NCBI GenBank assembly: GCA_001600635.1
Contig: BCKL01000056.1
Coordinates: 1-20,513 of the forward strand
Reading direction: 5' to 3'
DNA from: Leucosporidium creatinivorum
Lineage: Eukaryota > Basidiomycota > Microbotryomycetes > Leucosporidiales > Leucosporidiaceae
DNA: 20,513 bases
Shown here: positions 1 through 20,513 of the stretch, piece after piece
How positions within the stretch are numbered: position 1 is the first letter of the stretch
Layout: the number at the start of each line of letters is the position of its first letter
The notes under the pieces: generated by a model
What the model was told of the DNA's origin: nothing
Seen by the model: only the letters and a program-made list of their open reading frames with translations
Databases searched by the model: none
Program-made: the position numbers and the translations under genes

Positions 1-118
1 CTCAGACCACTGCTGGACTACCATCGACTTGCTGACCAGAATGTCGAAGCTGAGTCCAAAGGCTCGGAGCGGCGCTCAACCTCTCTCTTCCTCCTACTAC
101 TTTACGATCTCGCTCAAA

Positions 119-1504: not shown

Positions 1505-1728
1505 ACGCATCGCCGAGTTTCGCAAGTGTTGGACGGTCGAAAAGGGGTCGGAGGGAGACGCGCTGTACGCTGTACCACATTTCAAGTAATACTACAGCTC
1601 GCTCCTCGAGATTCCCACCCATCTCGTTGTCCTCGTGATCGCGAGCAGGAGTCGGCGGACCTTCAAGCCGGTGCAGCCCCACAATTTCGCCTCTTTTCCT
1701 CCTGCTCTTCACGTCGTCCAGCGGTCCA
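1505..1728. other. Intergenic: PHO88 3' region and upstream region of the arrestin-like gene
   Basis: 224 bases between two genes on the same strand. It should hold the 3' UTR of the first gene and the promoter and 5' UTR of the second. It is pyrimidine-rich just before the ATG at 1729. I see no clear TATA box, repeat or RNA gene. Confidence 0.6.
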
Positions 1729-3612
1729 ATGAGCCTGCCGTTGCGCTCACTCGCAGAACGACCTATCGCAGAAGATGGCAACGCTTCCACGTTTCCTTAC
1801 TCGGCCGCCGCCTTTGAGCAATCGCACAGCTCGGGCTTGGAGGTGCGCATCGAATTGGATCCGCCCAGCAACGCCCAAGGACAGTACTGCACTACCGAAA
1901 CCCTCAGAGGTCGAGTAACAGTTATCCGCAAGCCCACTTCGGCCTTTCCTACAGACTCGGCGGTGGTCGTCTGGATCCGCTCGCTCGCTCTTCGCCTTTA
2001 TTGCGAGTCGCGGACTACATTCTGGATGATCTTGGATGATCAGGAAGCGGAAAGAAGGAAGCTGGAGATGCAGGAGAATCTGCCCCCGCCGACGGATCTC
2101 GGCGAGGCGGTGCACAGAACGATGTCGAGGGGGAGCCGAGCTACGACGAAGAAGGGCAAGCAGAAGGAGAAGGAGACGGTCAGATGGAGCTTGGAACCAG
2201 AATGGGCGAGGGCGACTTTCGGAGAGGTCTCGCTCGTTAGTAACGGAGCGTATCAGGTCGCCGGCGCCGAGGAGCTGGACGACCGCTTTTCCCTTCCGTT
2301 CCAAGTCGCCCTTCCCTCCGAGCTCTCCTTCGACGAGTGGAACCACTTCTCACACGCCGATCGCTCCCATCACCGAAGTCTCCGCCCCTCTCCTCCCTCC
2401 TGCCGCGACTCGGCGGACGTCTCGGTCGAATGGTGCGCCGAGGCGATCCTCGACCTACGCTGGACCTCGCGCTCCAACCTCGCTACTCCCTTACATCACT
2501 CTCCCACCGAATCTCCTACATCATCTATCGCCAGCGTCTCAACCTCCTCCTTCGACCTGGATCAGCTCGACCCGTGGCGCAACTCCCGCGGCTTCCTCCT
2601 CTCCAAGCCCAGCCGTATCGTCACTCGAGTCGTCTTTCCCGTCATCCCGGCCGACGCTCAGCAACTGCAGCATAGCCTGGCGGACGATGTGATCTACTCG
2701 TTCGCCGAGAAGGAGAGAACGGCGCTCAGAGCGCATGCGGGCAAGTTGAACGTCTCGGTTGCCGAGGCGCATAGGAATAGCTCGACTTGGTTGAAGGTTA
2801 TTGAGTTGAGGAGTTCGGCTTTGGGGAAAGTGTTGGGGCTTCTGACTGTCGAGGTGCGTCCCTTGTCTCTCTTCAATCGAGCCCGGCGCTGACCCTCTCG
2901 GCTCAAAGCTGGTCACTCACAAACCCCTCTACCTCGCTCGCACCAACCTGCGTGGCTCTCTCTCCCTTTACCTTGATTGGAACCCCGCCACGAAGCGCCG
3001 ATTCGGTCTCTTCAAGCTGCTGAGCAGCGGCGAGGGAATCAAGATCCAGCAAGCGACGCTCGGCGTTGATGTGTGGACCTGGTCGAGGGGTGGGAATGGG
3101 AAGGTTAAGAAGCAGAGTAGCGCTATTCGGTATGTTCCCTCTGGCATCGTGTTTTCAGCGAGTCAGTACTCACAGTGCATTTCAAGCAGCTCCCTCCTCG
3201 TGCCCCTCGACATTCCCCTCACCGCTTGCCAGAGCTCGGCGCACACGGCTGGGAGGTACAAGGTCCGAGTACCCTTTGATCTGAGGGATGCGCAAGGTCA
3301 TACGCCCTCAAAGGATCTGCTGCCGAGCTTCAAAACTGCTAATGCAGAGCGGGAGGTAAGGTCCTTTCGTTGCCTTTCGCCGAGAAGAGCGCTGATGAGA
3401 GGTGTTGAGCGAGCAGTACACTATCACCGTTTCTATTCGACTGAGTGGGGGTGAGACGGACTATTATGTCGCTGTTGTACCGGTGAGTCGTCTTTCTTGA
3501 CTTGAGCGAGTTCGGCGCTGATTTTCGGCGAGCCCAGTTTCAACTCACGTCGGGGATTGCGCCGAGGGTGGAGGGGCATCTGGGAGGTATCGAGGAGGGC
3601 GAGGAGGAGTAG
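1729..3612 (+). CDS. Probable arrestin-fold (alpha-arrestin-like) protein
   Basis: Five exons: 1729-2853, 2909-3129, 3190-3355, 3417-3482, 3538-3612, giving 550 residues; all introns are 55-61 bases and in frame. The N-terminal part has an arrestin-like strand pattern: EVRIELDPP near residue 39, then YCTTETLRGRVTV and WIRSLALRLYCESRT. A basic, low-complexity insert (RATTKKGKQKEKE) interrupts it near residue 140. The C-terminal part has further beta strands, such as SLLVPLDIPLTACQ, RYKVRVPFDL and YTITVSIRLSGG, as in an arrestin C domain. Alpha-arrestins usually act as adaptors for ubiquitin ligases in membrane-protein endocytosis, but I find no PPxY motif, so that job is uncertain here. The arrestin call rests on fold-like pattern, not on a close remembered match. 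The C terminus is acidic (EEGEEE). The start is the first ATG of the open frame. Confidence 0.55.
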
Positions 3613-3856
3613 ATGCGTTGGTCGCTGCTATTGATCTTCGAAGTGAAAGCAAGGCTGTCGCGATGAGAGCGGATTCCCTACGGCGCCGAGCTCTCCGCAT
3701 AGCCCTTCTGCCCGACATCCCGAGACTGGCCTCACGCCTCTGTTCTATAGATGATGAACTTCAAGTGCTACCTTACGCGCTGTGACAGCTCCTCACGAAG
3801 CCCTTTAAGCTCAAGCTCGTACTCAACTTCGGCGCTCTCCGAAGGCGAATCCTCCG
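3613..3856. other. Convergent intergenic region (two 3' ends)
   Basis: 244 bases between two genes whose 3' ends face each other, so it should carry both 3' UTRs and poly(A) sites. It includes one copy of the recurring GGCGCCGAG word (3682-3690). I see no gene. Confidence 0.6.
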
Positions 3857-5653
3857 CTACACCACCGCCTGCTTGACAGGCATCATCGCCCCCTCAGGCG
3901 CCGGGTTCCTCTCCCTAAACTCATCGTTCACTTCCTGCTCGCCGCAAACCTCGTCAGCATCCTCTCTTCCCCTCTCTCCCGTCGTCCACTTCCTCCACCG
4001 AGCGACGGACGAACTCACCTTCATCGTCACCCATTCGACGCCCTCATGTCCATTGATCCACTCGATCAACTCTTCGAGGATGAGGAGCATGTGTGGACGG
4101 CCGGAGGTGTCGGGGTGGAGGGTGAGGGGGCTGTGGAACGGGAGAGGTGAGCCCCGAGCAGGGGGGGAAAGGAAGGAAGGAAGGAGGAGTGAAGGGGGGG
4201 AGGGACATACAAAACGAACCAGTCCTCTTCGCGGTAGAAGTATTCGAAGTGCTACGAAGATGAACAGAGCTGGCTTTCAGCCTTGCTCTATGAAGAGAAG
4301 AACGCGGAGCGCCGAGAGACGGGCTGACTGCTCACCTTCTTCCATAGATCCAACGTCGTTCGAGCGTCGACAAAACCGTGCGAGTTGGGAGCGTTCTTGA
4401 TGAACATGTGAGGGGGCAGGTCATCCAGGTACCCTGTGGCGGTTGCATTGAATTGTGAGAGGAGGGAGCGGAGAGAAGGGGAGGGTGAGAGAGAAGGGTC
4501 AGCTCGTGCTCGGCCGAAGCTCAGCACAACAGAGCAAGCTCCTCCAACCTCCAGCACGATACAATGCAGACCAGTATGACAAGGTACAGTCACTCACAGT
4601 TCGCCGGAATCTCGACCAACCCCGTCATCTTCCCTCGGACCAAAGGTTTCATCCACTCCTTCGCGCTCTCGGCCTTGTAGTTGATCTTGGTCCAGCTATC
4701 CTCGTTCCTCGTGTAGAAGGGCGAGCAATCGTGCGCCTGAGACGAGTGGTCGTACTCGATCCCCTTCTCGAGAAGGAGAGCCACGCCTTCCGCCGAGGTC
4801 TCCCACCAGGGAGCGACGGAGCCGATGGGGGGTATACCGCAAAAGGCGGTTAATTGCTGTAGGTGTGAGTAGAGGTGAACTAGGGTCAGCAGTGGGTGGC
4901 GAAGGCGGAGACCTGAGAAGGATGGGCGAGGGAAGGCTCCGAGTCGGCGTTGGCGCACCTCGAAGGTATGGTCCAGGACTTCCTTCTGTTGCTCAAAAGT
5001 CATCGCCGTGGGATTCTCGTGGGAGTATCCGTGCTGTTGAGCGAGATTGGGGTGAGCTTCAAGTCAGAGGGAACGGCGCTCTCGGAGCTCTCACGAGTCG
5101 GCCGAACTCACCAGGCCAATCTCGTGCCCTGCGTCTCGCACAGCAGCGCATTGCTCGGGAAAGGTGTCGAGCGAGTGGCCGGGGATGAACCAGGTGCTAT
5201 TGGGATGCGTGCGAGAGGGTCAGCAGCTGTAAGGTGTCGTCCGCGCCGAAGATGGCCGAGTGCAGGAGGGCTCACGTCTTCATGTCGTACTTTTCGAAGA
5301 GCTTGAGCAGGCGGGGGATGCCGACCTGTGAAGGAGTGGAATAGAAGTGAGCCCCGTCCTATAGCGGTACAGGGAGAGGAAGGGCGAGCGAAAGAGGCGA
5401 GAGGTGGGGCCAGCCTCGGAGCTGCTCTATAACGATGCTACTCACCTCACCGGCGAACATGCCCCGGGAGATATCATTGGGAGAGTCTTCTCCGCCGTAA
5501 GAGCCGAGCCTGTAGAGGAGTAGGCGTGAGATGAGGGTAGGTCAGGCGATAAGCGAGAGGTGAGTGAGCTGACCAGCCCGAGACTGCGTCGACGTCTACT
5601 CCGATGGTGCACAGCGCTCGTTTGGGCTTGGTATTAGTCGAATCTGTAGCCAT
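3857..5653 (-). CDS. Polysaccharide deacetylase, HpPgdA-like carbohydrate esterase family 4
   Basis: Ten exons read right to left: 5574-5653, 5446-5509, 5276-5325, 5112-5196, 4959-5033, 4598-4856, 4336-4433, 4211-4251, 4019-4130, 3857-3934, giving 313 residues, a usual length for this subgroup. Family features: [10 protein letters not shown] with Asp20 and Asp22, [29 protein letters not shown], and HGYSHENP with His94 and His98. The D/H/H metal set has the spacing (72 then 4) that I recall for Helicobacter Pgd[11 protein letters not shown] near residues 255-263 probably supplies the catalytic His. Such enzymes remove acyl groups from polysaccharide or related amides; the substrate here is unknown. 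No signal peptide is visible, suggesting a cytosolic protein. Intron 1 uses a less common gtcagc donor. Intron 8 is a GGAA/G-rich purine tract. The start ATG at 5653 follows the frame; an upstream TTG extension is unlikely. Confidence 0.88.
4161..4204. repeat. Low-complexity purine tract with GGAA repeats in an intron
   Basis: Purine-dominated stretch on the + strand: a 7-base G run, then GGAA repeated about three times, then another 7-base G run. It lies in intron 8 (4131-4210) of the deacetylase gene, so the transcript carries it as a pyrimidine tract. It is probably simple-sequence expansion. Confidence 0.85.
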
Positions 5654-5810
5654 GTCCGAGGTCGAAGCGATTTGGGGGAAGCGAGATCTCGGCTCAGCTT
5701 TGGAATCGCTCCCTCTCGCGGCCAAGTCGAAATCGCTCTTACCCTTCCGCCGTCATCTCCTCGTCGTCTCCAGCCGAATCGACTACAGGACTTAACAGGC
5801 GACTAGTCAG
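5654..5810. promoter_or_regulatory. Divergent promoter shared by the deacetylase gene and LOS1
   Basis: 157 bases separate the two start codons, which point away from each other, so both promoters and 5' UTRs must fit here or overlap the genes. I see no clear TATA box. The stretch just before the LOS1 ATG is GACTAGTCAG. Assignment as a promoter is by position only. Confidence 0.6.
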
Positions 5811-8800
5811 ATGGAGCAGCTCGCCTCACAAATTTCTGCAGCGGTCAAATGCGCCTTAGACCCATCCCCTTCCACTCCAGCCGAAACTCGCTCCCAGGCC
5901 TACACTTTCCTGCAGCAAGTCCGAGATGCTAGTGCAGAAACTTGGCAACCTTGCTTGAACTTCTTCTTGGAAAAGAGTTGGTCAAGTGAGGAACGCATGT
6001 TTGGAGTACAGGTCGTCGGTGACAGGTGAGTTGACAGAGGGATCCTTTTCGCGGCCTTTCCAGCGCTTTCGAGGGGTTCAAGAGGGCCGTAGAGCAAGCA
6101 GAGAGTGGGGAGGGAGAGCTGAAGCACTACAGATTCAGTCTGGGCCGTTTTCGAGCGGCTGCAGCTGGTCAGAAGCTCAGAGCGGAGCTTGCTGAGTGAG
6201 GGAAGAGATTCAAAGTCATTCAACTCGAGTACAGCAGCGCTATTGGAGTTGAGTAGGGTGACTAGGTAGTCGCTCTGCTTGCTTCATTCCATGTTGCACT
6301 GCTGTACCGAGTTGAAGGAGAGCTACAACGGGCAGCGCGCCGGCTACAAGAGGACGCTCTTTCCCATCTGCGCTTCTCGGCGGGGCAAAGAGCTCTGTAA
6401 GGGAGCGCTGTCAGCGGTGAAGGAGTAGCTCTCACAGTATTCCTGGCGACTCTGCACATGCTTACTGACCCTCCGACTTCAACTCAACAGCCTACCATCC
6501 CTCGCTCCCGACGCACTCGCCTTTGTTCAGTCCTCGCTGCTCGACTACTTTACTCGAGAATACGTCGAAGGGGAAGCAGAGGATGGTGTAGCTTGTAGGC
6601 TGCTCTCACGCGCCCCATCTCTCTGACATCGCTAACCGCCAACTCGCGTGACCTCTTCCCTTCCCGCTCGGCTCGGCTATCGACAGACCTCAAGAACGCC
6701 TCCCTGCACCTCATGTCGCTCCTCTTCCTCCAAACCTACCCCACAGCAGCACCGACCTTCTTCTCCCACTTTCTGAACCTCCTCCGCACCTACCCTACTT
6801 CCGCCAACATCCCTACCACCTCGGCCACTCCCTTCAACCCTCAAACTACCGACCTCTTGCTGCGTTTGCTGCATGAAGTGTCGTTGGAGATCTCGGATGC
6901 GCAGTTGAGGTTGAATAAGAGCCCGAGTAGGCTGCAGAAGGATGTCGAGTTGAGGGATGCGGTCAGGGAGAAGGATGCGACGAGTATTGCTGGGACGCTG
7001 TGGGAGATTATTGGGGAAGCGTTGGATGGTGTGGGGACGGAGGATCCTAGCGGAGGGAAGATCGGGTTGAAGGGTGATAAGGCGAGGGAGGTGGCCGAGA
7101 TGGCGGTGCGAGTAGCAGGGGATTACGTTTGTGAGTTCGTTGAGTTCGGCGCCGAGGATTCGAGCTAACCTGACTCGTTCAACAGCCTGGATCGACATCA
7201 ACCTCATGGTCACGCCCACTTCCATCCCACTCCTCCTCCGCGCCCTCCACCTTCCCTCTCCCGCCGACATCTCCATCCGTACAGCAACAGCCGACGCCCT
7301 CCTCGAAACCGTCACCAAAGGAATGCCCGCGACCGACAAGCTCGCCCTGCTGCAAGTGCTCGATATTGGGACGGTCCTCGGACGGTTGGTCGATATTGGG
7401 AGGGAGAATGGAGCGACCGAGGCGAGTGAGGAGATTGAGCAGTTTAGGGAGAAGTTGGCAAAGGTGCTGAACGGCGTCGGGTGCGAGTTGTGCAAGATCA
7501 TCGAGGATGTGAGTTGCTCTCGCTCTTCAATTCTAGAGCCCAGCTGACCCGTCTCAACCTACGCAGAACATTTCCACCCCCGAAGCCAAGCTCGCCGCCC
7601 ACTCGATGGCCACCTCCCTCCTCCCCCTCCTCCTCCGCTTCCTCTCCGACTCGCACGACGAAACCGCCATCGCCGTCTTCGGGTACGCCAACGCCATCCT
7701 CTCGGTCTACAAGAAGGAGAAGAAGCGCGCCGGACCCAATGCGGCGGCGACGCTGACGGCCGAGAAGAGGGCGTTCTTGGTCGAGCTGTTGAAGGCTACG
7801 GTTGCTAAGATGGAGTATAAGGGGGATGTCGAATGGGAGTTGAGTCTGGAGGGAGAGGAGGATGAGGAGATGCTGCTGTTTGCTGAGATGAGGAAGGTGA
7901 GTTCGTTGATGCTCGGCGCTGGGTTCGTTCGCCGCAGACGTTTACAATCGCTCCACTAGAACCTCCGCTGCATCGGCGACGCTATTGCCTACATCGACAC
8001 CGAACTCTACGCCGACGCTATGCGGTCCATCATCATCGCTTCGCTCGACCTTTACGAGACGGGAGGAGCTTCGGCGGCCAGCTTGTCGTGGCAGAGAATC
8101 GAGCTGGCGTTGGCGCTGCTGTACGGATTCGGTAGGTCGCATTCTCATCTCTGCCACGTTTCCTTCAGAACTCGAACGCTCACCTTCCTCCCCCTCACTA
8201 CAGGTCAAGCCGTCTCCGCCACAGGACCCGGCGCCTTCGTTCAAGTCCCCGACTCGGAGATCCAACGCGCCAAACGGGAGGCCGACTACCGCATCGACTA
8301 TACGCAGTACCCTCTCTCCCAGCTGGGCGAGATGATGCTCCGTGCGTGCAGGAGCAAGGTCGTCGCTCATGAGCATGCGAGCGTCTCCCTCCAGTTCTTC
8401 GAGGTTGCGGTCAGGTATCACGACTTCTTCAAGCTGTGCCCAGAGTATATTCAGCAGATCTTGCCGAGCTTCTTGGATGAGCAGTGAGTATCTTTCGGTC
8501 TTTGTCGAGCGATCTGGGCGCTGGAGCTGACGAGCTCCGCTCTCTGCGCTTTACGTAACAGTGGCCTGCATCAAAGCGAGGAGGCGGTCCAGGCTCGCGT
8601 CTTCTACCTCTTCAGTCGCTTCATCTACCAGGCCAAGACGATCGTCCAGGCGCAGGTCTCGGGCGAGCTCATCTCCGAGATCCTCACTCGCATGCAGGTG
8701 TGTTAATGGTGACGTACCCATGCGCCTTCCAGCTCACTGACCTCGACTTCCACCGCGCAGGACCTCCTCAACGTCAATGCCGAGCTTTCCTCCCTCGACG

Positions 8801-10347
8801 CTCCCTCAGACGACCTCCTCACCAAAGCCGCCGGTACCCCTTCCTTCTTTGACTCGCAACTTTACCTCTTCGAAGCAGTCGGCACTCTCATCTCCATCCT
8901 CAACCAAATCCCCGAGCAACAAGTCACCCTCCTTCGCGCGGTCCTTACTCCCCTACTCGGCGGCTTGCAGGCCAACGTTCGACCGGCAGCGTCAAGTCCG
9001 GAGGACTACCAGGCGATCTTCCAGGCGCATCATCTTATGATGGCGGCGGGGAATGTGGCGAAGGGGTTCCCTGATCTCAGCGCGAGGACCCCGACGGCGA
9101 GTGGAGCGTGGGTCGAGGTGTTCAAAGAGGCTACCGAGCAGATCTTGACTGTCGCCAAGACGATGGGAGGTTTCGTCATCATTCGCGATGCTGTGCGTTT
9201 CACCTCCCCTTCTTCTTGTACGCGGAAGCTGACCCGCTACGACTCTACAGGCCCGTTTCGCCTTCAACCGCATCGTCGCTACTACCGGTCAAGCCGTCCT
9301 TCCCCTCATCCCCGCCCTCATCGACTGCCTCATCGGTCAAATCACTTTCCCCGAACTCGCCGAGCTACTCAGTTTCATTGGTCTCCTCGTCGCCAAGTAC
9401 AAGGTGAGCCCTTTCGCCTTTCTCGCTCTCCTCGCCTCGCCGCTTACTTCCCCTTCCGCCCTCAGACCTCCTTCCTCGAGATCCTCGACACCCTACTACT
9501 ACCCGTCTTCCAGCGCGTCTTCACCTTCCTCAAGCAGCCGATCAACGGCACGGACGACACGGTGCAGCACTCGCACCTCCGCCGCGCCTACTTCAACTTG
9601 ATCCTCTGCATCACCGGCGCCGGTCTCCAGGAGGTCTTCTACTCCGAGAGTGAGTCGCTTCTCGTTCAGTTTGTAGCTCGAGAGCGTCTCGCTGACCTTA
9701 CTCCTTCGCCAATCGCAGAGAACAAGGCTCACCTCCAAGACATCCTTCAATCCGTCACGCACTACATCAACACCGACTCGCTCGCCCCGGATCAGCGCTT
9801 CGGCTTCATCGTCCTCAACAAGCTCGCCGGCCTCTGGGTCGAGCAGTACCGCCCCGCGACCGCCCCTCCCATCGCCAACGGCGCTCCTCCTTCGCCCGTC
9901 CCCGGCTTCGAGCAGTTCCTCTACAGCAACGCCGTCAAGCTTTGCTTTGAGGTGCCGTTGAAGCCTAGCTTTGACTACAGCGATGCTCAGAGCTTCCAGG
10001 TGAGTTCGGGGGTCGGTTACACTTGAGCTTTGGCGGAGAGCTGACTGCTCGCTCCACCTCCCCACAGGTCATCGGCGAGATCGCCAACCTCCTCAAGCTT
10101 GTGCTGCAGAAGCGTGGCGCCGAGTTTGTCGAGTTCATGACCTCAACGCTGCTCCCCTCGATCCAATGCCCTCCCGATGCTGCCCAGGCGTTCATGACCG
10201 CGCTGCAAGAGGCTCCAGAGTACGTTCAGCTCAAGATCCTTCGTCCGAGATTCAAGGCTGACCCTCTCTCGTATCACCAACAGCGGCAAGCAGTTCAAGA
10301 AGTTCCTGCAAGAGTGGCTCCGCCAAAGTCGGGGGGCACCTCGTTAG
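5811..10347 (+). CDS. LOS1: Exportin-T (LOS1), tRNA nuclear export receptor
   Basis: Fourteen exons: 5811-6025, 6491-6594, 6687-7130, 7186-7508, 7567-7896, 7960-8131, 8204-8483, 8562-8697, 8761-9192, 9251-9403, 9466-9649, 9719-9999, 10068-10219, 10284-10347; 1089 residues, matching yeast Los1 (about 1100) and human XPOT. Collinear family segments include SWIDINLMVTP, VTKGMPATDKLALLQVL, VSLQFFEVAVRYHDFF, ARVFYLFSRFIYQAKTI, LRRAYFNLILCITGAG, FIVLNKLAGLWVEQY, LKPSFDYSDAQSF and the C-terminal KQFKKFLQEWL. Exportin-T is a HEAT-repeat karyopherin of the importin-beta family; with Ran-GTP it carries mature tRNA from nucleus to cytoplasm. Intron 1 (6026-6490, 465 bases) is far longer than the others (55-92). 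The exon 13 donor was chosen at 10220, which keeps the C-terminal family sequence in frame. The gene looks intact. Confidence 0.95.
6026..6490 (+). other. Oversized first intron of LOS1
   Basis: 465-base intron with gtgagt donor and CAACAG acceptor; the branch site is probably TACTGACC close to the 3' end. Joining exon 1 to 6491 gives the segment expected from exportin-T family alignment, so the whole stretch should be removed. It holds a short open stretch from 6061 to a TGA near 6197 after a possible internal acceptor, but this does not resemble the family. I see no snoRNA boxes or repeat ends. Confidence 0.75.
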
Positions 10348-10843
10348 ATTCCTTTTCCTCACCTCAAAAGCGAGCTGCGATAGCTCTTACGACCGTCCTC
10401 ATCCACTACCCATTTACGACCCTTCTCTCTTACATCGTTTCCGCTTCGACGAACCCCCTCATCTCGATACCACCCCCCTTCGCCCTTCGCACAAAATGTC
10501 TCTTCGCTCCCCCCCTCGCATCACTCTTACCCCCCTTCTTGGCCCGCTGTCGATCGTTGTAGAAACGCATAGTGTGTCGCGGCGAATACAAGCACCTTCC
10601 ACCGTGGCTCGTGCTATTGCTGAGAAAGAAGGGCATTGGAAGCGAACGCCGAGCGCCGAGCTAGCCCGCGGGAGAAGAGGATAGGATTGACAGGCTTGAC
10701 AGAGGGTAAAATAGTTCGTGCTGTTTATTAAGGTCTATACCTACTCCTCGCCTAACCTCATACAGCGCGCCTCCTTTTCTCGTCCCCTCGACCTCAAGCG
10801 AACGAGCTCGAACCTCTTGTCCGCAACAACAATCTCGCATCCC
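10348..10843. other. Intergenic: LOS1 3' region and promoter of the PLC-like gene
   Basis: 496 bases without a gene. The first part should be the LOS1 3' UTR. The part near 10700-10840 includes an AT-richer patch (GGTAAAATAG near 10706) and is pyrimidine-rich before the ATG at 10844. There is a GCCGAGCGCCGAG doublet near 10649. No TATA box or RNA gene could be named with confidence. Confidence 0.6.
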
Positions 10844-13800
10844 ATGTCGACCGAGGATACAGCAGTACACGAAGTAGTAGGAGGGAGTAGCAGCACGACT
10901 GCTCGACCTCTTCCTCGCGTGCTCAGCGTGCAGACGAGCAGCTCGAGCAGCAGCCTCGCTCCTTCGCTCGACGTCGTTCCGCCAACGCCCACCTCGGCCG
11001 CTCAAGCTACAGGAAACTCTTTGATGGATCCGGCTACTCGCCCAAAGCTTCGACACAAGCTCTCCGACTCGCTACTTGCGTCCTTCCGCGAGGTGAAGTC
11101 GGCTCTCCCTTCGCTCCCTCGCCGCAAGTCGAGCGAAGGTAGCCTTAGCACGGGCAAATTAGTTTCCGATGGCGAGCATGGATCAAAGACGACTTCCTCT
11201 CTCGGCGCCCTCCCCTCCCTCCTTCGCCGAGCACCCGGCATCAAGCTCACCCTGCTCAACCAAACCGGCCTACCTATTTCCCTGTCGACTTGGCCGATTC
11301 GCTCGGAGGACGGAGACGCGTGCGAGATGAAGGCGTTTCGAGGGAGCGGCGTGGTGGAGTCGAGCTCGCTGGATCGAGAGAAGGTGTGGGAAGGGGACGA
11401 GGCTTCGGTCCTCGAGCTGGGGACTATTCGCAAGCTGACGAAGCAGAGTTGGAGCGCTGCCAATGCTCATGCAGAGGGATGGGTGAGTTGAGCTCGTTTT
11501 GGGTGATCTGAGAGACCTCGCTGACCTCCCAGCTCTCGCAGATCTTCTTCGACGTGCTCGTGCCTCCTCCGCCGAACACTCCCTCAACTCGACCTTACGC
11601 CCTCCACCTACAAGCCTACCTTCGCCTCTCTACCTCCGGATCAGCCAAAGCTTCCCTCGGTCGATTCGACCTCGACTCTTCCACCGACAAACCCATGCCG
11701 TCAGGTCATCTCGGCCGAGTCGAAGTCGTTCGGTCGGGCGAAGGTCCTTCCCCCCTCACACTTCCTCGCTCGTCTTCCGTCCATCCGAAATCTTTGTCCT
11801 CGCGCACGAGCGTGGATATGGTAGCAGTCGAGAAGAAAGATCAGGCGACCGAGCTCGGCGATGTTGTCGAGGTTCGCTACTTCTTGACGCCTGACGTCGC
11901 GCAGGCGTGGAACGAGGTGGACGACGGCACGAAGGGGAGAAGCTGGATGAAGCCGAGCAAGGGTATAGTTGTGAGCTCGTGGGTCAGCCATGAGGACGTC
12001 GTCGTTTCGCTCAACATCAAGTGAGTCTAAGCCACAGGCCTTCGCAGCCTAGAGCTGACCCCTGCACTTCAACAGCAAGGAAGCCCGATATCACGAGCAC
12101 ACGTCCTACCGACATGCAGCTCCTCCGATCGCTGCAGCCCAAGCTCACGTCTCCTCCATCTCCGCCGACTCAAATATTCGCACCATCGAGCACTTTCCCG
12201 CTCCGCACGGCCTTCGTATATCGCATCACGTCCTCGACGGCTTCGACTACCGCACCTGCTGGATACACGTTCGTCACGGGAGGGACACTGTGCTCGAGCG
12301 CATGCTCAAGATCAATCCACTCGACGGCAGCGTGTGAGTCGCAAACGCGCCGAGCGGAAGGAAAGCAGCTGACGTCCATAGCCGACAGCACGGGCGCACA
12401 CATCACCTCTACCGTCGACACGCCCGTCTGCTTCGACCACGAGCATGCGCTGAGCGTCAACTACGGCTTCTTTGATTCGGGCGTCGGCAGGAGCAAAGAG
12501 GTGAGCCGAACCTCCTCGGCGAAAGACTGGGATCGAAGCCTCGCACTCACACTCTTCGCTCACAGCTCTACATCTACGCTTCGAGGAAGCAGTCGACCTG
12601 GCTCGAAGACCTCATCAGGACGGATCCACGAATTTTGAAGGCGCCGTTCGGCACGCTCGCCCTCGCGGGATCGCATGATGCAGGCATGTTCGGCAGGTGA
12701 GTCAACGGATGAGCGACGCTAGGCTTATGAGGATAGCTGAAGTTCCTATCACACAGAATCAACACCGAGTACGTTCAGGTTTCCCTGCGCTTGTTCCGTC
12801 GCCAAGCTCAGCTCTCTTAGTCTCAGCGGGGCCTCGTCTGCAACCTCGCTGATCTCTCTCGCTCACGCAGCCTACTTCGCTTCATCAAGAAAGGCCAAGC
12901 TGGCGACCTTCCTGCCGTAGCTCGAGCCCTCCCTCTGCTTCGCTTCGTGCTCGGCCTCCTCAAGACATTCTCGGTTAAGCCTCATCGGGTGAGTACAGCT
13001 TCATCTCACAGCTTCGAGAGAGCGTGCTGACCAGCTGGTGACAATAGATCCTGGAGAACCTCGCCAACACGCAGAAGGACACTATCGCCTCGCAATTGCA
13101 GCTCGTGAGTCGCTCATATTTCGAGCTCTCTCGGCGTCGCCCATGTCGGCGAAGTGTCGGCGCTGATCATAGTATCTCAGGGAGTCCGCTTCTTCGACTT
13201 TCGCCCGGGATACTCGCTCTTCGACATCGTGCGTCCTCTCTGCAGCAGTTGCGAGCGAGGGCTGATTTCTTCGCCGAATCTCTCAGGTCGACGAGATCAA
13301 AGGCGAGCTTCGGCACCAACACTCGATCGTACCCGGCTGCAGCTACGAGGGATTCCTTATCGACATCTTCACCTTCTTGCATAATAATCCGCAGGAGATG
13401 GTCGTTGTCGAGGTGGGTTCCCTGCAAAAGTTGCTGTCGAATGTCGCTGACTCGGCCGACGACGTCCGCAGCTCAAGTCGGACAGCTTTCCCTTCCCCTC
13501 GGACGTGTACGACCCTGCGACAGGCAAGCTGGTTGCCATGTCGATGGTCCCAACAGTAGACGAACTCGCTGCTGTGCTCCGCTCGGCTTCACTCGTCGAC
13601 CAGTCTATCCTAGTCGGCGATGCTCGCCACCTCGCTCGTCCTATCGGCGACTTGCTATCGGAGAACAGACGCCTCATCCTCGTCGACCGGATTCACGCCC
13701 TCGGGTCGACATCTCAAGCTGCTGCCGAAGCCCCGAGCGGCGCAGAGGCAATTGAGGTCGGCGCCGAGCGTTGGGAGAGAGCCGACTCCTACAGCCACGA

Positions 13801-14400
13801 GATGTACGACGGCGACGACGCCGAGAAGATCAAGGCTGCTCTTATGAGTACGCATTAGGACGCCTGCTACCGTACTGCTGCTGGAGAAGGAGGAGCGACG
13901 ATCTACCAGCTTCAGGCAACGCCGACGGCTTCGGTGTGGGCCGATGTGGGAGCTTCGTTGACGTACTCGGACGCTTCGAGCTTGCTGGTGTGGAGCAAGG
14001 CGAGGATGTGAGTCATCGGATCGGCGATGGAGCGAGATTCGGCGCCGAGCAGCGCTGACCTTCCGACCGCCTCGCAGGGACCGCGTAACCTACCCCTGGC
14101 TCGCGGCGACGACCTTCCTTGAGCCTGGAAACGTCATCTTTCTCAGTGAGTGCTTCGGCTGGACCTCGAAGCGGAAGGCTTGCCGACTGACCCCCTTGCG
14201 AACCAGACGACTTTGTGGACGGCGCGCTGGTAAGGGCTCCTTTTGCTTTCACGCTTTCTCGCACGTGAAGGTACGGCGCTGACGACCCCCTCCGCACCTG
14301 AAAGGTCGAGCATGCTCTCGACAAGACTCGCGAGAGGCTCGATCTCTGGCTTGCGAAGCACTCGCCGCTGTCCGAGGTCGGCGCCGGTACGGGAACGTAG
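10844..14400 (+). CDS. PLC-like phosphodiesterase with PI-PLC X-type catalytic domain; in-frame TAG near the C terminus
   Basis: Fourteen exons: 10844-11482, 11542-12020, 12076-12333, 12389-12500, 12566-12696, 12757-12768, 12871-12988, 13048-13104, 13181-13228, 13287-13412, 13472-14007, 14078-14145, 14207-14229, 14305-14400; about 900 codons. The first 200 residues are Ser-rich and low in complexity; a beta-rich middle region follows. The catalytic domain starts at LALAGSHDAGMFG (His near 532), then NTQKD, GVRFFDFRPGY (603-613) and RHQHSIVPGCSYEGFLIDIF (second His near 628), as in PLC-like phosphodiesterases. IYQLQATPTA, YPWLAATTF and LNDFVDGALVEHAL complete it. This superfamily cleaves phosphodiester bonds of inositol lipids or similar substrates; the substrate here is unknown. 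No signal peptide is seen. A TAG at 13856-13858 (codon 789) lies in the open frame although conserved coding resumes directly after it. Exon 6 is only 12 bases. Confidence 0.85.
13856..13858 (+). other. In-frame TAG inside the conserved end of the PLC-like gene
   Basis: Exon 11 runs in one frame from 13472 to 14007 apart from this TAG. Upstream (DAEKIKAALM) and downstream (GGATIYQLQATPTASVW) both look like conserved parts of the same domain. A small intron from a gtacgc donor at 13848 to one of the AG sites at 13886-13895 would restore the frame, but it would be only 39-48 bases, below the 55-base minimum of other introns here, with no CTGAC branch site. Otherwise it is a true nonsense change, a sequencing error, or a read-through site. 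Confidence 0.8.
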
Positions 14401-14734
14401 CTGAGGGGAGAGTGAAAGGATAGCGAGATACACTTGTTCCGCCGTTAAGTCGCCATGCGGGGGAGCGAGACCGAGAGCGATTGAGTTGGGATCGATGTCG
14501 AAGCCCATCGCCGAGAGCTCTCCTGCGCCATCTCCCCCGCTCCAAGCTCAACAGTAGATGACAGCAAAGTTGCAGGGAAAGTCTATGATGGAGGAGGGGA
14601 AAGGTCGATGCAGTGTTGACGGATGTACAGATGTGTGAGCTGCAAAAGGGCGGAGAGGTTAGCGTTCGAGCCGAGCCGAGCGCAAGAGACATGCAAGCTT
14701 ACGAGGCGAGCCCGCAAACCGAAAGGAGCGCAAA
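14401..14734. other. Convergent intergenic region between the PLC-like and SH3 genes
   Basis: 334 bases between two 3' ends; expected to contain both 3' UTRs and poly(A) signals. Open frames here look like composition-driven shadows. I see no gene, repeat or RNA signature. Confidence 0.6.
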
Positions 14735-15966
14735 CTAGAAAATAGCGTTGATGGCGTTGCTCTGTGGGGTAGAAAAGGGGGAAAATCAGCATTCAGTCGC
14801 CCATCTCGGTCCACTCCCCTCCAGCTCGGCGCTCCCTCCAAGCTCGGCGCAAGGTCACCAGTCCCCGAGAACTCACCGCAATAGCCGAACCAGTTCCAAA
14901 CCCTACACCACCAGCAAACGCCGTACCCATCCTGCCCGCAAACTTGTGCTTGTTCTTCTTGTCGGGGATGGGAGGAGGGGTGGCCTGAGACTGCACGGGC
15001 GCGGGAGGGGGAGGAGGGTGCGAGGAGTAAGGGCTGGGTTGCTGGTAGTCTTTCTTCTCGTCCCATTGGTTGTGAGGAGCGCCGCCGTAGGAGGAAGGAG
15101 CGCCGAAGGAAGGTTGGTGCTGAGCGGCGTAGGATTGAGGCTGCTGGTAAGGGTATTGAGCCTGCTGCGAGGGGAGAGGGGCAGCGAAGGAGGGAGTGGA
15201 CGAGTAGTTTGAGGTGCCGGTGGAGTTGGGATAGAGAGTTGAGGCAGTCGAGGATGGGTAGGCCGAGGGAGGAGCGGGAGAAGGGGTCGGCGCCGAGGGG
15301 ACGTCGATGCGCTCGCAGTAGTTGCTGGGGAAGAGGCCCGTCTTGCCGTCTGTTTCAACGCAGCGAGAGAGAGATACAGAAAATGTTTGGGAGTCAAGAT
15401 CAGCCTTTTGCGCCGAGAGAGCTGAGGCGATGCTGCGAACGACAACGCGAACGGCTCCCAGGACTCACTGAGGGATCCACGCCACCAGTCGGCATTCTCC
15501 TCTGCTTCCAGTACAATCACATCTCCCTTTGCGAAGCCCAAGTCGTCCGGCTGTAGCGTTACGAAGGGACGAGAGACGGAAGGTCAGCGTTCGGCCTCCT
15601 TAGCGAGTCGTTTGTAGCTTGTTGGAGATGCGAGAGAGCAGCAGTGATCTGCTACAGCGACCTAGACACCACTCGACAACTCACCTGAGTAGCAGCATAG
15701 TCCCACAGAGCGCGAAGGTGCTGAACTTGTGGCGCGGCAGACGTGGGAGCAGCAGGAGGAGGGGGTACAGTCCTCGCCTGCTGAGCTACAGCTCCTCCGT
15801 TCAGGTTGAGCTGACCTAGTTGCTGGTTGAGCTGTCCAGCGTTGGCTGAGGGGAGCTTGGAGCGGATCAATGCGGCGTCCTGAGCTGAGATGAGCGATTG
15901 TGTAGCGAGAAAGTCGACGTCGGCCTGCATGCGCGAGAGCAGGTGTGCGAGGAGAGCTTGATCCAT
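14735..15966 (-). CDS. SH3-domain protein of the LSB1/PIN3 type (actin-patch associated)
   Basis: Four exons right to left: 15685-15966, 15469-15550, 14877-15349, 14735-14761; 287 residues. The order matches yeast Lsb1/Pin3: an N-terminal helical segment with DVDFLATQSLISAQDAALI (about 16-35), an SH3 domain at about 83-136 (ALWDYAATQ, DLGFAKGD, WWRGSLNGKTGLFPSNY), then a long Pro/Gln/Ser/Tyr-rich linker (137-250), and a Gly/Ala-rich end, KFAGRMGTAFAGGVGFGTG, finishing in SNAINAIF. Yeast Lsb1/Lsb2 end in a comparable Gly/Ala-rich segment finishing VNNIF. Known roles: binding Las17/WASP to restrain Arp2/3-driven actin assembly, and, for Lsb2/Pin3, prion induction through the Gln-rich region. 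The Gln/Tyr-rich linker suggests low-complexity behaviour, which is inference. The last exon is only 27 bases. Introns are 115-134 bases, longer than in neighbouring genes. Confidence 0.88.
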
Positions 15967-16261
15967 CTTTGTAGCGAGTTGAGGTAAAAACAAGGTGAGA
16001 GTGGGAGAGCAAGCTGCTTCGAGCGCCGAACTCTCGCTTTCGTCGAACTTCGCGGTCGATTCACTCGCTACACGTCGAGGTGCGAGACTATGACCACGCC
16101 TGCAACTGCGAGAGAAAACACACAACACACTCGTATCGAAAAGCAGCTAGACAGAAAGTTTAGGTCGAGAGAGAGAAGCGAGCCGAGCTCTTCGCCGAGG
16201 CGAGAATGGCTGTCCGTTGAATTGGGGGCTGAGAGCTCCGCTTAGCGCGGCGGTGAGGGAC
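15967..16261. promoter_or_regulatory. Upstream region of the SH3 gene
   Basis: 295 bases between two genes on the minus strand: promoter and 5' UTR of the SH3 gene on the left, 3' UTR of the small upstream gene on the right. One GCGCCGA word occurs near 16023. No named promoter element is evident; the assignment is by position. Confidence 0.55.
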
Positions 16262-16907
16262 CTAGTTGATCTTGTAAATGAGCATCAGTGGTTACAGGCT
16301 CTTGAGGATTGAGTTGAGAGCGAAGCTGGACTCACGATCTTATTGGCGATGAGCTCCAGGAGAGCCTGGTCTCCAACAACGGCGCGGCGTTGGTACTGCT
16401 CCATGACAAGAGCCTCAATCTTGTCCAAGACCTCTTTGGAGCGAGGTGAGTGTACTTGGGTCTTGAGCTCGTTGCTGTGAACCGAGCTCCGAGATCAGCT
16501 CAAGTCCTCGCTTGCTCGGTCGAGTCGAAGCCTACTCACACCTTCATGTTGAGGCTCGGACCTCTGAGTAGCTCCATCACACGCAGGAACGCTCCAGACG
16601 CTTCAATCTTCACTTTAGCTTCCGCCAACTTGGTCGAGAGGGTCTTCTCGGCTTCGGCACGCTCCATCTCGACCCCCCTCGCAAGCCTCGAGCTGTGTTC
16701 AGTGAGAGGCTGCTGGTCGTCCTCGGGCGAGCCAGTGTAGGAGAGGGCGGGAGAGTCGGAACTGGTCGAGGTGGCGAGGGCGGGAGAGCCAGCGATGGAG
16801 GGCGATTGGGAGGTAGAAGTGTCCGGGGAGGATACAGCGTACTCGTCGTCAAAGATGTTCTGCGCCTGCTCCTGCTGCTGGTAGGGCTGTCGAGGCTGAC
16901 CAGACAT
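16262..16907 (-). CDS. Small uncharacterised protein with charged, probably helical region
   Basis: Three exons right to left: 16540-16907, 16336-16474, 16262-16270; 171 residues. I do not recognise the family. The first 70 residues are Gln/Ser/Thr/Pro-rich and look disordered (QPYQQQEQAQNIFDDEYA, then SP/SPA repeats). From about residue 80 the sequence is charged and helix-prone (RGVEMERAEAEKTLSTKLAE), followed by a well-structured end: FLRVMELLRGPSLNMKVNEL, SPRSKEVLDKIEALV, QYQRRAVVGDQALLELIANK. This suggests a small helical adaptor or complex subunit, which is inference. The final exon is 9 bases and codes only for Ile, Asn and the stop. Without that splice the protein would run on for about 16 residues and then stop. 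The frame stays open upstream to an ATG at 17156, but a strong intron signal (16916-16984) lies there, so the start at 16907 is preferred. Confidence 0.75.
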
Positions 16908-16915
16908 GATTCGAG

Positions 16916-16984
16916 CTGGAGAGACGCGGGGGGCTGTCAGCTGCTGCAGCTCATAGTGCGAGCGGGAGGCGACGGAGGACGTAC
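16916..16984 (-). other. Probable 5' UTR intron of the small uncharacterised gene
   Basis: On the minus strand there is a gtacgt donor at 16984, a GCTGACAG branch-type site, a pyrimidine-rich stretch and a CTCCAG acceptor ending at 16916, eight bases before the ATG. The size (69 bases) fits other introns of the window. If spliced, the start codon lies at the very beginning of exon 2. Confidence 0.65.
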
Positions 16985-17406
16985 TTGTGACTTGTAGATC
17001 TAGGCGGAGAGTCGAATGGAGCTCCGCAAGCGAGGCGGAGAGAAGAGACGAGAAGCATGAGAGAGAGTTGCGAAACGGGCGCGCCGCTCGCTTTTGGTGA
17101 GGGTCGAGTTGCGTATCAAGCGAGAGAAAGCCGGGAAGGGTACAGAAATGCGTCATAGGTTAGAGAGCGATGCAGATGATCCCAACAGATGCTCTGTAGG
17201 GCTCCCCCCTTCTGCCAGCAGACCTCGGCGCTCTCTCGGCTCACGGCTCACCGCTCCCTCTCTCCAGCGCTTTCCCTCTCACCGCTCTCCACCGACCTCT
17301 CCCAGCACCCAAGATCAACTAAAGACCAATGCATTGCTCCTCCTCCATTCCATACCCTGCTCCCACACCTCGGCGAACGGGGCCCTGACTAGCGAAGAAG
17401 CTGCGA
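16985..17406. other. Intergenic: promoter of the small gene and 3' region of COX13
   Basis: 422 bases between tandem minus-strand genes. The left part should be promoter and 5' UTR of the small gene, the right part the COX13 3' UTR. It contains a pyrimidine-rich stretch at about 17200-17320. I see no gene, RNA or repeat. Confidence 0.55.
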
Positions 17407-19023
17407 TTACTCGGCGTCGGCGAGGGGGATGTTGACCTGTTTCAGCGTTGTAGAGGATCGCATGGGTTGATGAGGTGATGGAGAAGAGGGGGGGGGGGCG
17501 GGAGTGATGCGGCGGAGGAGGGGCGGCAGAGAGGGGACGAATGAGAGAAGACGAGGAGGGTCAGCGCCGAGAACGAGGAAGGAGTACGAAAGGAGAGCGT
17601 ACCTTGGGGTTGTAGAAAGGAGTGTAGTCTCTGTGTGTATCGAACGCGAGATGAAGCGCAGCAAGAGTCAGCTCCCCGTCGTCTCTCAAAGTCCGACGAC
17701 TTTGAAACGCACCCCCAGGGAAGGTCGCGGTTGCGCATGTTGAAGTAGGGGTAGACGACGCGCTCGGGGAGCTCTCCGCCGTTCTCCTCCTTCATGTGGG
17801 CGACGTGGGCCTCGTGCTCTGTTGGGGGAGAACGGGACAAGAGAGATGGGGCAGGCGGAGCGCCGAGCAGGAAGGGAGGGGAGAAGGACAGGGTCAACGA
17901 TGAGCGGGGAGAATGGAGAGAGAGTTTGAAGCTCACCCGTCATGAGGTTGGCCGAGTTGAGGTAGCCGACGATGACTGTGGAGAGGGAGAGAGAGGTAAG
18001 CTTCGGCGTTCGGGTCCCGGCGGGTGCTGGAGGGCCATGAGCAGCAGAGAGCTGGAGAGGGCAGTCGGATGGGATGCAGTGATGTCTACCATCAGCAAGT
18101 CCAGCCCACGGGCCCTCTCAAGACAGCAAGTCGACCGTTTCGGCGACGAGGTCGAGACGGCCGGACTCGCGCTTAAAGGTCCCCCGCGCAGGCTGCTCTG
18201 TGGCCTACTCTCGAGCAGATGCTTCCGCACTGCCTGCACGCTCCCCCCTCTCTTCCCGTCCTTAGTGACCACTTGGCCCCCTCGCTCGTCCCGCCTAACC
18301 CATCCCGTCCGCTCCTCCTCACAAACTCGAGGCAGGTTCCCTCCACGAGTCAGCTGAATCCTCCAACTTCAGATGTCCAGTTCGCCCTCCGCCCTCCTTC
18401 ATAGTCGAAGGGGAGCGAGGAGCGGGTTGGGAGGTCGGGGGCAGGAGGATGCGTTCGAGCTGGAGATGGGCGGGGGCGAGAAGTCGAGTTGGGAGGCGAG
18501 GACCAGCAGTGGCCGCGCTGATGCACTCACTAGCAGGGCAAGCGACGTAGAGGCTGTAGGGTGTGCAGAGCGAGTGTCAGCTACAGAGCTCGAGGGAGGT
18601 GTTTAGATTGAGAAGAGGGCAGAAGGGGCGAAGGGGAGCTGTTGTAGGCCGTTGTAGCTGCTCTTGGCTGTTGTAGAGGAGTACACAGTACTCTTCCTGC
18701 CGCTCTTGCTAATCCCAACCCTGCTGTACCGCTGTAGCTTCCGTCCCAGTTGCCTTCCGAGTGGCCCCGCCAACCAAACGCTGTCTAGCACCTCGGATGA
18801 AGAGCTGTAACGTACGTGATCTTGCGCCAGAGCTCAGCGGAACCCTTTGCGTGGTCAGCGACGTGAGCGCGCGACTCCAAGAAAGCGCGTCCAGCTCCAG
18901 CCGACTCGAGAGTCGCAGTGTTGGCAACAGTTTGGGCCAGGCGCTGTTGAGCAGAGTAAGAGTCAGCTACAGAATTTAAGTGCAGTGCAGCAGATTACTT
19001 ACAGCGAGAGTAGGGCGGAACAT
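17407..19023 (-). CDS. COX13: Cytochrome c oxidase subunit VIa (COX13), mitochondrial
   Basis: Seven exons right to left: 19003-19023, 18816-18943, 18531-18553, 17937-17975, 17713-17818, 17603-17630, 17407-17436; 124 residues, close to yeast Cox13. The N terminus (MFRPTLARLAQTV...) looks like a mitochondrial targeting sequence: Arg present, few acids. Then come HAKGSAELWRKIT, one membrane segment at about residues 51-69 (LYVACPAIIVGYLNSANLM), EHEAHVAHMKEE, YPYFNMRNRDLPWGDYTPFYNPKVN, and a short acidic end. The YxxxNxRxxxxPWG and FWN/FYNPKVN pattern is characteristic of subunit VIa. It is a nuclear-coded, single-span inner-membrane subunit at the cytochrome oxidase dimer interface that modulates activity. 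Exons are tiny and some introns very long: intron 3 is 555 bases (17976-18530) and intron 2 is 262 (18554-18815). The gene looks intact. Confidence 0.93.
17488..17498 (+). repeat. Eleven-base G run in COX13 intron 6
   Basis: A homopolymer of 11 G on the + strand, C on the transcribed COX13 strand, inside intron 6 (17437-17602). It is likely length-variable and a place for sequencing error; it does not touch coding sequence. Confidence 0.9.
17976..18530 (-). other. Oversized intron 3 of COX13
   Basis: 555 bases, about nine times the usual intron here. The gtgagt donor and CCACAG acceptor join PAI to IVGYLNS within the membrane segment, so the splice is well supported. A plus-strand open frame covers much of it but has no family resemblance and looks composition-driven. 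I see no mobile-element ends or snoRNA boxes. Confidence 0.8.
18638..18693. repeat. Repeated TGTTGTAG-type words and a short palindrome in COX13 intron 2
   Basis: Three near-copies of CTGTTGTAG (18639-18647, CCGTTGTAG at 18649-18657, 18668-18676) are followed by a palindrome, GAGTAC-ACA-GTACTC, at 18679-18693. All lie in intron 2 of COX13. They may be simple local duplication. Confidence 0.75.
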
Positions 19024-19147
19024 GGTGGTAGTGAGAGACAAGTAAGTAGCGAATGAAGGAGAGAGGCTCAGCTCGGGGACTTGGGAAAAGGCGCGACAAA
19101 GCCGAAGGGGGTTAGACTCTGCCTACATTTCACTACATAATCAAACA
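19024..19147. promoter_or_regulatory. Divergent promoter between COX13 and the TRAP-alpha gene
   Basis: 124 bases separate two start codons that point away from each other, so the promoters and 5' UTRs must share this space. The right half is AT-richer (ACTACATAATCAAACA just before the ATG at 19148). No defined element is recognisable. Confidence 0.6.
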
Positions 19148-20513
19148 ATGGTCAAACTGCACCTATCTAGCTTCTTAGGTAGCACTAACCTGCTACAGCT
19201 ATCGCCCTCCAACCGCTGATCGCTTCCTCTCTCGTTCGCTGGATCTCAGCCGCTGCGACTCTGGCCTGCTCCGCCCTAGCTGCCAAGGTGTCTACTCCGG
19301 ACGTGGATGTCAGCATTCAATGGCCAGAGAGGAACCCTTTCGGCCGTAGGTTATCCCTCTTCTCTGCTTTAGAACCGGAGCTCGAGCACCTGGGAACGAC
19401 GTGGATGCCGCTGGGTCGCGTGCTGAGGCTTAGGGGGAGGTCGAAGGGATGCGAGGGAGCAGTGGGATCACGCAAGGATATGTGGGAACTTGGTGGACAG
19501 GTCGGTTCGGCTGTAGGAGGGCTTTGGCTTTGACCGCCAGCGTAGAGCTCATCGCCGGAGGGCGGAGGTGGGGCAGCAGCTGAGCTCGTCGGATGGCAGG
19601 GAGACGATGGAGGAGGTGCAGACAATACTTGGGTGTCTAGCTAACCCTCGCCTCCCGTAGGCATTACGAACGGCCACTCTTCTAACCTCCTTCACGTCCG
19701 CCTCAACAACCATGCTGGCGAGGAGATTGTCATCACTCGCGTCTATGGTGCTTTCCGCGAGCCTCATGGTCGCGAGAGGGCATTGAGGAATGTGAGCTAG
19801 GCAGCTGGGACTCTGTGCCGAGCTGGGAGCCTTTGCCGAGTTGGAAACCTTCGCCGAGCTGGAGCTGAAGCTGACTCTTTGTCCTCTTGAATCGCAGACT
19901 ACGACCCTTGCTCTTCAGCAGCCGGTTCTTCCTGGGCTCAAGTCGCCTTTGATCCCTTACAAGGTCGACTCTCGCTCTCGGCTTTCATCCTCGGTGCAGC
20001 TCGGCTGACCTCCCGCTTCTTGGTTAGTTCCACTCCGAGAACAAGCAAGGAGAGGTTGGACTCCGCGTCTGGGTCGACTACCTCGACGCTGTGCGTTTCT
20101 TCCTTGGACGTCCATCACGTTCTCCAGTTGACCTCTCCTTCGCCGAATCCGCAGAGCAAGAAGGTCCACACCATCCTCGGCTTTGAGGGAACTGCCACCG
20201 TTTCCGAGCCCAAAGGAAGCTGGTTTGATCCCGCTCTGTATGTCCTGCTCTCTGTCTCTTCTTCTGTTTTCTCCCCTCACCCTTTCCCCCTTCCCTACTC
20301 TCCCTCCCTCTCCCTTCCTCCCCTCGACGCTGCCCGGCTCCACAGACTCTTCTCCTACCTTATCATGGCCTCCCTCCTCCTTGGCCTCGCTTACCTCATC
20401 TACACCTCCTACACCGCCCCCGCCGCCGGCTCCAAGTCCAAGTCCTCCAAACCCTCAGTCAAGCGCACTCCCGGGTTTGGTTGGGTTAGGGTTGGGTTAG
20501 GGTTAGGGTTGGG
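19148..20513 (+). CDS. TRAP-alpha/SSR1-type ER translocon-associated protein, 3' end replaced by telomere repeat
   Basis: Seven exons: 19148-19178, 19250-19345, 19661-19791, 19898-19963, 20028-20090, 20155-20237, 20346 to the window end. The start codes a signal peptide (MVKLHLSSFLAAATLACSAL, cleavage probably after Ala22), then the lumenal domain: DVDVSIQWPERNPFGRITNG, LLHVRLNNHAGEEIVITRVYG, GLRVWVDYLD and LGFEGTATV. One membrane segment covers about residues 159-179 (FSYLIMASLLLGLAYLIYTSY), followed by a basic cytosolic start (SKSKSSKPSVKR). The architecture matches TRAP-alpha; yeast IRC22 is related. The protein sits by the Sec61 channel and helps some substrates enter the ER. Native sequence ends at about Pro199; the frame then reads into telomeric repeat without a stop. 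Remembered fungal homologues continue with a charged tail ending in Lys-rich sequence, so the end is missing. Intron 2 is 315 bases; intron 6 is a long pyrimidine tract. Confidence 0.85.
19816..19869 (+). repeat. Three tandem 18-base imperfect repeats in a TRAP-alpha intron
   Basis: Three consecutive copies with an 18-base period: TGCCGAGCTGGGAGCCTT, TGCCGAGTTGGAAACCTT and CGCCGAGCTGGAGCTGAA, directly followed by the GCTGAC branch-type site of intron 3 (19792-19897). Copies 1 and 2 differ at three positions; copy 3 is more diverged toward its end. This is probably local slippage. Confidence 0.85.
20250..20330 (+). repeat. Long pyrimidine tract in TRAP-alpha intron 6
   Basis: Intron 6 (20238-20345) is almost entirely C and T on the transcribed strand from about 20250 to 20330. 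It lacks the usual CTGAC branch site, so splicing may rely on another site. The flanking exons still join in frame (Pro-Ala-Leu-Leu-Phe). Confidence 0.7.
20473..20513 (+). repeat. Telomeric repeat tract at the chromosome end
   Basis: The last 41 bases are telomere-type: an initial GGGTTTGG, then TTGGG, TTAGGG, TTGGG, TTAGGG, TTAGGG, TTGGG. TTAGGG is the common fungal telomere repeat. The G-rich strand runs 5' to 3' toward the edge, as at a true right-hand end. The five-base TTGGG variant alternates with the six-base unit. The tract begins directly after the CCC of a proline codon in the TRAP-alpha gene. Confidence 0.9.

Follow-up and report, generated by a model that had tools for sequence, protein, structure and literature searches.

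The window, i.e. the whole stretch of DNA analysed here, corresponds to the entire contig C56 (positions 1-20513), one of the 63 contigs of a Leucosporidium creatinivorum assembly of 27,713,604 bases. At its distal end lies a gene for TRAP-alpha, whose last exon is directly followed by 41 bases of telomere repeat and then by the end of the contig, with no spacer in between. The features are as follows:

19148-19178, + strand: TRAP-alpha exon 1, start of the signal peptide (MVKLHLSSFL); ATG, phase-1 donor GTAGCA; hand model
19250-19345, + strand: TRAP-alpha exon 2; acceptor TCTCAG, donor GTAGGT; open frame
19661-19791, + strand: TRAP-alpha exon 3, luminal domain; Pfam and PDB matches, spliced by hand
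19898-19963, + strand: TRAP-alpha exon 4; Pfam and PDB matches, spliced by hand
20028-20090, + strand: TRAP-alpha exon 5; Pfam and PDB matches, spliced by hand
20155-20237, + strand: TRAP-alpha exon 6; Pfam and PDB matches, spliced by hand
20346-20472, + strand: last TRAP-alpha exon, cut off; membrane segment and the basic first part of the cytosolic tail; no stop before the repeat
20470-20475, + strand: junction CCCGGG; GGG assignable to gene or telomere, putative 3-base seed
20473-20513, + strand: telomere array of mixed TTAGGG/TTGGG units; the G-rich strand faces the contig end

The seven-exon model was built by hand, without transcript support; all six introns have GT/AG borders, and the frame is open over 199 codons. 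For Pfam and PDB searches, a protein of 188 residues was spliced by hand, with the first exon left out. It matched the Pfam family TRAP_alpha (PF03896) with 36.5 bits (cut-off 24.7; E 3.7e-9; profile positions 18-163 of 180) and, as the best PDB match, chain 9i78_7, a TRAP subunit alpha (E 4.5e-8) from a structure that we take to be fungal. Without splicing, the frame gave no Pfam match, and a 42-residue query with the membrane segment found no match in the PDB. In the C56 translation, a putative signal peptide at the N-terminus and a single putative membrane segment can be made out by eye. The cytosolic tail of TRAP-alpha is generally conserved among fungi, and fungal members of the family are marked by a WIPxHH motif near the C-terminus. 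Chain 9i78_7 (278 residues) has such an extra tail with WIPAHH close to its end, and a stretch of the conserved tail matches this chain. The translated C56 gene ends before such a tail and contains no WIPxHH; this is no argument against its identity as TRAP-alpha, since the tail is the very part that is cut off.

A match to a Pfam family at E 0.001 or better was obtained for five of the 17 window frames scanned, and frames other than that of TRAP-alpha match Pho88, Xpo1/Exportin-T and COX6A. Because of this content, C56 appears to resemble core sequence rather than a subtelomere. Pho88 (window positions 363-755), presumably identical to SND3, and TRAP-alpha (19148-20472), both linked to the ER, lie at opposite ends of the contig, which is probably a coincidence.

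The junction between exon and repeat

The last exon, preceded by the acceptor CCACAG, starts at position 20346 and codes for LFSYLIMASLLLGLAYLIYTSYTAPAAGSKSKSSKPSVKRTP. Its frame is free of stop codons and stays so through the repeat up to the contig end. The sequence from 20473 to 20513 reads GGGTTTGGTTGGGTTAGGGTTGGGTTAGGGTTAGGGTTGGG, at which point the contig stops, and Tandem Repeats Finder called an array at these same positions. In a sliding comparison, 32 of the final 35 bases were identical to an ungapped TTGGGTTAGGG or TTAGGG array, as compared to 21 of 35 for the best 35-mer in the rest of the window, so that a chance origin of the terminal tract is excluded. Two statements of the sequence-only reading, that a telomere sits directly on the last TRAP-alpha exon and that the frame runs into it without a stop, are thus borne out.

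Because the three G of CCCGGG can be assigned to either side, the junction is defined only to within three bases. The same reading had proposed that this motif provided priming homology. A short GGG (20473-20475) does stand at the join, as in known cases of healing, and is compatible with a short telomere-like seed, although it could also belong to the added bases. The first telomere unit is irregular at C56 (GGGTTTGG) and likewise at contig C10 (GGGTTTGGG).

The telomere repeat and the other contig ends

Telomere arrays were detected at 21 of the 126 contig ends by pattern searches, which possibly missed more of them. Strictly terminal arrays number 20, C56 included, and at 20 of 20 the G-rich strand points outward; the count is 20 and not 21 because the array of C37 is not the outermost sequence of its contig. 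At the start of C37 (L063:1-60), twelve bases of non-telomeric sequence separate a short array from the contig end. This array may be internal within a subtelomeric repeat, and a similar sequence was noticed by eye near an end of C23. As 19 other contig ends are capped by a matching mixed repeat, the C56 tract represents the organism's own telomere.

Over the terminal 110 bases of all 21 ends, 90 TTAGGG and 77 TTGGG units were counted. The unit after TTGGG was TTAGGG in 56 of 61 instances, and the unit after TTAGGG was TTGGG in 45 of 63. Since the 5- and 6-base units mostly alternate, the basic unit is close to the 11-mer TTGGGTTAGGG. Among the papers found in an open-licence library, none was, judging by title or opening of the abstract, a fungal report of this alternating repeat, and none of those found for TTAGGGTTGGG together with telomere dealt with fungi according to its title; the telomere of Rhodotorula pacifica is described as plain TTAGGG (PMC12509554). 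Counts of the repeat over the assembly prove little, because backward controls match as well: a TTAGGG triple was found at five places as against five for the backward control, a second repeat pattern at five as against four in the control, and a mixed 18-mer with two mismatches at 68 as against 37 for the backward control. The argument therefore lies in the place and direction of the repeat at contig ends. By the array-length rule, the C56 array measures 35 bases (41 from the first GGG) and is the second shortest of the 21 (range 34-88). Interrupted units are present in the arrays of C15 and C42 and hardly at all in that of C56. This regularity is no proof of a young end, since several other arrays (C12, C19, C26, C62) are equally regular.

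The sequence-only reading had also stressed the missing subtelomeric spacer. No spacer is present between exon and repeat; as a special feature of this end, however, its absence did not hold up. For a comparison of the ends, the last 6 kb of each (5,980 bases at C17, all of C56), minus the final 80 bases, were used. Sixteen of the 20 terminal ends matched no other end at E 1e-5, a proportion that may be biased, because repeated subtelomeres assemble badly and would then show no telomere. A diverged repeat is common to C6, C15, C19 and C37, and 31 bases are common to C27 and C37. As 16 of the 20 ends lack a shared subtelomere, the spacer-free end of C56 is not exceptional in this assembly.

C56 is also not the sole end with an array that cuts a coding frame, since the array at the end of C6 breaks into a chromodomain frame that probably belongs to a retroelement (L052:5661-5936; Chromo, 36.7 bits, cut-off 25.1). 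This frame was one of two that exceeded the Pfam cut-off among ten open frames near nine of the 20 other array-bearing ends; frames had been chosen, with four shown per end, by a codon score trained on only 1,111 codons, some of them unverified. The second, with a DHHC match at C12, stops about 110 bases short of the array, and an eleventh frame, also at C12, gave no Pfam match. The matches to YL1 at C51 and to LRR_14 at C2 did not reach their Pfam cut-offs. At C2, C26 and C28, open frames without a Pfam match run up to the array, and PDB searches with the C2 and C26 frames yielded only E 0.056 and 0.93.

Proposed origin of the C56 end

With a TRAP-alpha query, six matches were obtained in the assembly. 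All six lie in C56, and a second copy as donor was rejected; the complete second copy for which the sequence-only reading had advised a search was thus not found in the assembly. An alternate haplotype of the contig was rejected for the parts tested, positions 1-5400 and 15000-20470, which match only themselves; 5401-14999 lies outside the valid scope of this duplicate test. A query with 1-15100 missed its own locus, yielding no more than a stretch of about 83 bases in C15 that matched at 75%, and was left unused. Since query and window parts match only C56, the C56 gene was not copied from a locus still contained in the assembly.

The lost tail was searched for as well. The pattern TGGATHCCNNNNCAYCAY occurs at two places in the genome (C5 and C13), as compared to none for the control, and both were rejected as the lost TRAP tail, the frames not being TRAP-like by eye. 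A 26-residue tail query found no match in the assembly, in a search run without a positive control, and the WIPxHH pattern would miss a diverged or intron-split tail. The lost tail could simply be unassembled.

Telomerase is represented by its RNA-binding domain (PF12009), found on C4 as two neighbouring pieces with 72.9 and 31.6 bits (cut-off 25), the first of which contains one in-frame TAA, perhaps within an intron; none of 14 control genomes matched. Telomere-like 14-mers occur at 40 places, as compared to three for a control pattern, and the three internal ones were considered as telomerase RNA templates. None of them was accepted. The sites at C1 and C9 sit in apparent coding frames (by eye), and the one at C23 lies inside a presumed intron (by eye) of a gene for a ubiquitin-conjugating enzyme, the sense strand of the gene being the G-rich one. 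The C23 site is an isolated exact 18-base telomere-like sequence (C23:476830-476847; L059:4831-4848) about 2.5 kb inside the contig end, which looks more like an interstitial telomere scar than like a template of telomerase RNA. For the telomerase RNA of Ustilago, a link to emi1 is described.

We consider it likely, with a probability of about 0.72, that the chromosome arm ends in the last exon of TRAP-alpha through breakage or erosion and that telomerase healed this end, starting from a short G-rich seed. A double-strand break, or the erosion of a failed telomere, would have reached the codon after ...KRTP; GGG or a G-rich 3' end would have seeded telomerase, which would have copied the irregular first unit GGGTTTGG and then the regular TTGGGTTAGGG/TTAGGG repeat. 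All distal DNA, including the end of the cytosolic tail, would have been lost; break, seed and distal loss are what we infer from the join. As a second TRAP-alpha copy was not found in the assembly, simple terminal truncation followed by telomere addition fits best. The host-type repeat stands at the very end with its G-rich strand outward, it is fused directly to single-copy sequence without subtelomeric repeats, and a telomerase domain is encoded in the genome. The direct fusion is weak evidence of healing, given that 16 of the 20 terminal ends match no other end. The healing proposed by the sequence-only reading thus stands on the organism's own repeat, the single TRAP-alpha gene, the telomerase domain and the GGG, and has lost weight on the side of the spacer.

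Telomere healing as a type of event is already known from Plasmodium, Magnaporthe and the basidiomycete Cryptococcus. In P. falciparum 3D7, healing is described at five of 28 ends, four of these inside a truncated var coding region (PMC5550746), which makes the kind of event proposed here a known one. As at C56, the repeat is fused into a coding region there (var, rif), distal DNA is lost and subtelomeric repeats are missing; however, the genes hit include subtelomeric multigene families, whereas here a conserved ER gene found only once is affected, and those events were verified by long reads, whereas the C56 join is known from the assembly alone (PMC5550746). In Magnaporthe (Pyricularia oryzae), fungal ends were likewise truncated and capped (PMC7367193, PMC8381367). 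Seeds of 1-4 nt were used for 19 of the 24 telomeres formed de novo at the rDNA end (PMC7367193), and for most telomere-adjacent sequences not explained by terminal truncation a second copy existed (PMC8381367). Avr-Pita is separated from a telomere by 48 bp, near but uncut, in contrast to TRAP-alpha, and strains were compared in that work, whereas C56 is known from one assembly (PMC7367193, PMC8381367). In Cryptococcus crosses, chromosome breaks were also capped by telomere repeat, with 15 de novo telomeres in hybrid progeny and one, about 17 kb from the end, in intraspecific progeny; these were mostly hybrids carrying the chromosomes of both parents (PMC7846113).

It appears unlikely that an assembly artefact, i.e. 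a chimeric read or a false graph join, added the telomere where the coverage of TRAP-alpha ended. The contig is short (20.5 kb) and ends at the repeat, and its array is among the shortest; exon and repeat, however, share only about three bases, seemingly too few to mislead an assembler, and the array is correctly oriented, with its units mixed as at other ends. Furthermore, the 20-mer at 20449-20468 occurs only once in the assembly, with two mismatches allowed, so that an alternative continuation from this sequence is absent from it.

Equally, there is little probability that break and new telomere arose in a part of the culture or on one homologue, the intact chromosome being unrepresented in the assembly. 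Spontaneous breaks healed in culture are described for Plasmodium (PMC5550746), passaged Magnaporthe cultures gained new telomeres (PMC7367193), new-telomere candidates were sought in reads of cultured strains (PMC8381367), and breaks in Cryptococcus hybrids were tolerated, as the authors reason, thanks to the chromosome of the other parent (PMC7846113). An intact majority should, however, leave its own continuation, and none was recognised in the tail searches, which had no positive control. Very improbable is an old fixed end, with TRAP-alpha long being the last gene in the species or clade and its C-terminus coded by telomere: the upstream frame is open and unique sequence beside telomeres is usual in this assembly, but the cytosolic tail is generally conserved in fungi, a stretch of it matching the 9i78 chain, and the C56 array is hardly interrupted as compared to C15 and C42, a weak point given the equally clean arrays elsewhere.

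What the cut gene could encode

For an end healed by telomerase, the intact upstream frame and the GT/AG introns suggest that the event may be recent or that selection may be ongoing. Within the contig, the repeat provides 13 complete open codons, and a 14th is completed by the next T (GFGWVRVGLGLGLG). The continuation of the array was simulated 20,000 times, with units drawn according to the unit counts of the 21 ends. TAG directly followed the 14 telomere-coded residues in 18,334 of these simulated continuations (92%), the median tail being 14 residues long, and 99.9% reached a stop within about 40. The stop comes at once because TTAGGG is the usual next unit. If an array consisted of TTAGGG alone, two of its three frames would stay open, unlike in the mixed array, in which 5- and 6-base units shift the frame and make a message without a stop, as raised by the sequence-only reading, unlikely.

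If the gene is transcribed, the predicted product would be a TRAP-alpha that carries, in place of its own tail, about 14 residues encoded by the telomere up to a TAG. From the orientation of the gene, transcription would head toward the telomere and would yield G-rich RNA of the TERRA strand, TERRA being RNA of the G-rich strand (PMC12566771). It is doubtful, though conceivable, that the cut gene is still expressed, with transcription running from its promoter into the telomere, as a hybrid of TRAP-alpha mRNA and TERRA-like G-rich RNA that gives rise to a stable protein, in which the tail of about 14 residues (GFGWVRVGLGLGLG) substitutes for the cytosolic tail. In that case, telomere repeat would serve as coding sequence.

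Overall, if confirmed, the C56 end would place a conserved ER gene at the extreme tip of a chromosome, its reading frame running into telomere repeat. It would then offer a natural test of whether the cytosolic tail of TRAP-alpha is dispensable, as well as of the fate of a message that is transcribed into a telomere. The case also shows that candidates for telomere healing can be read from the assemblies of little-studied fungi.
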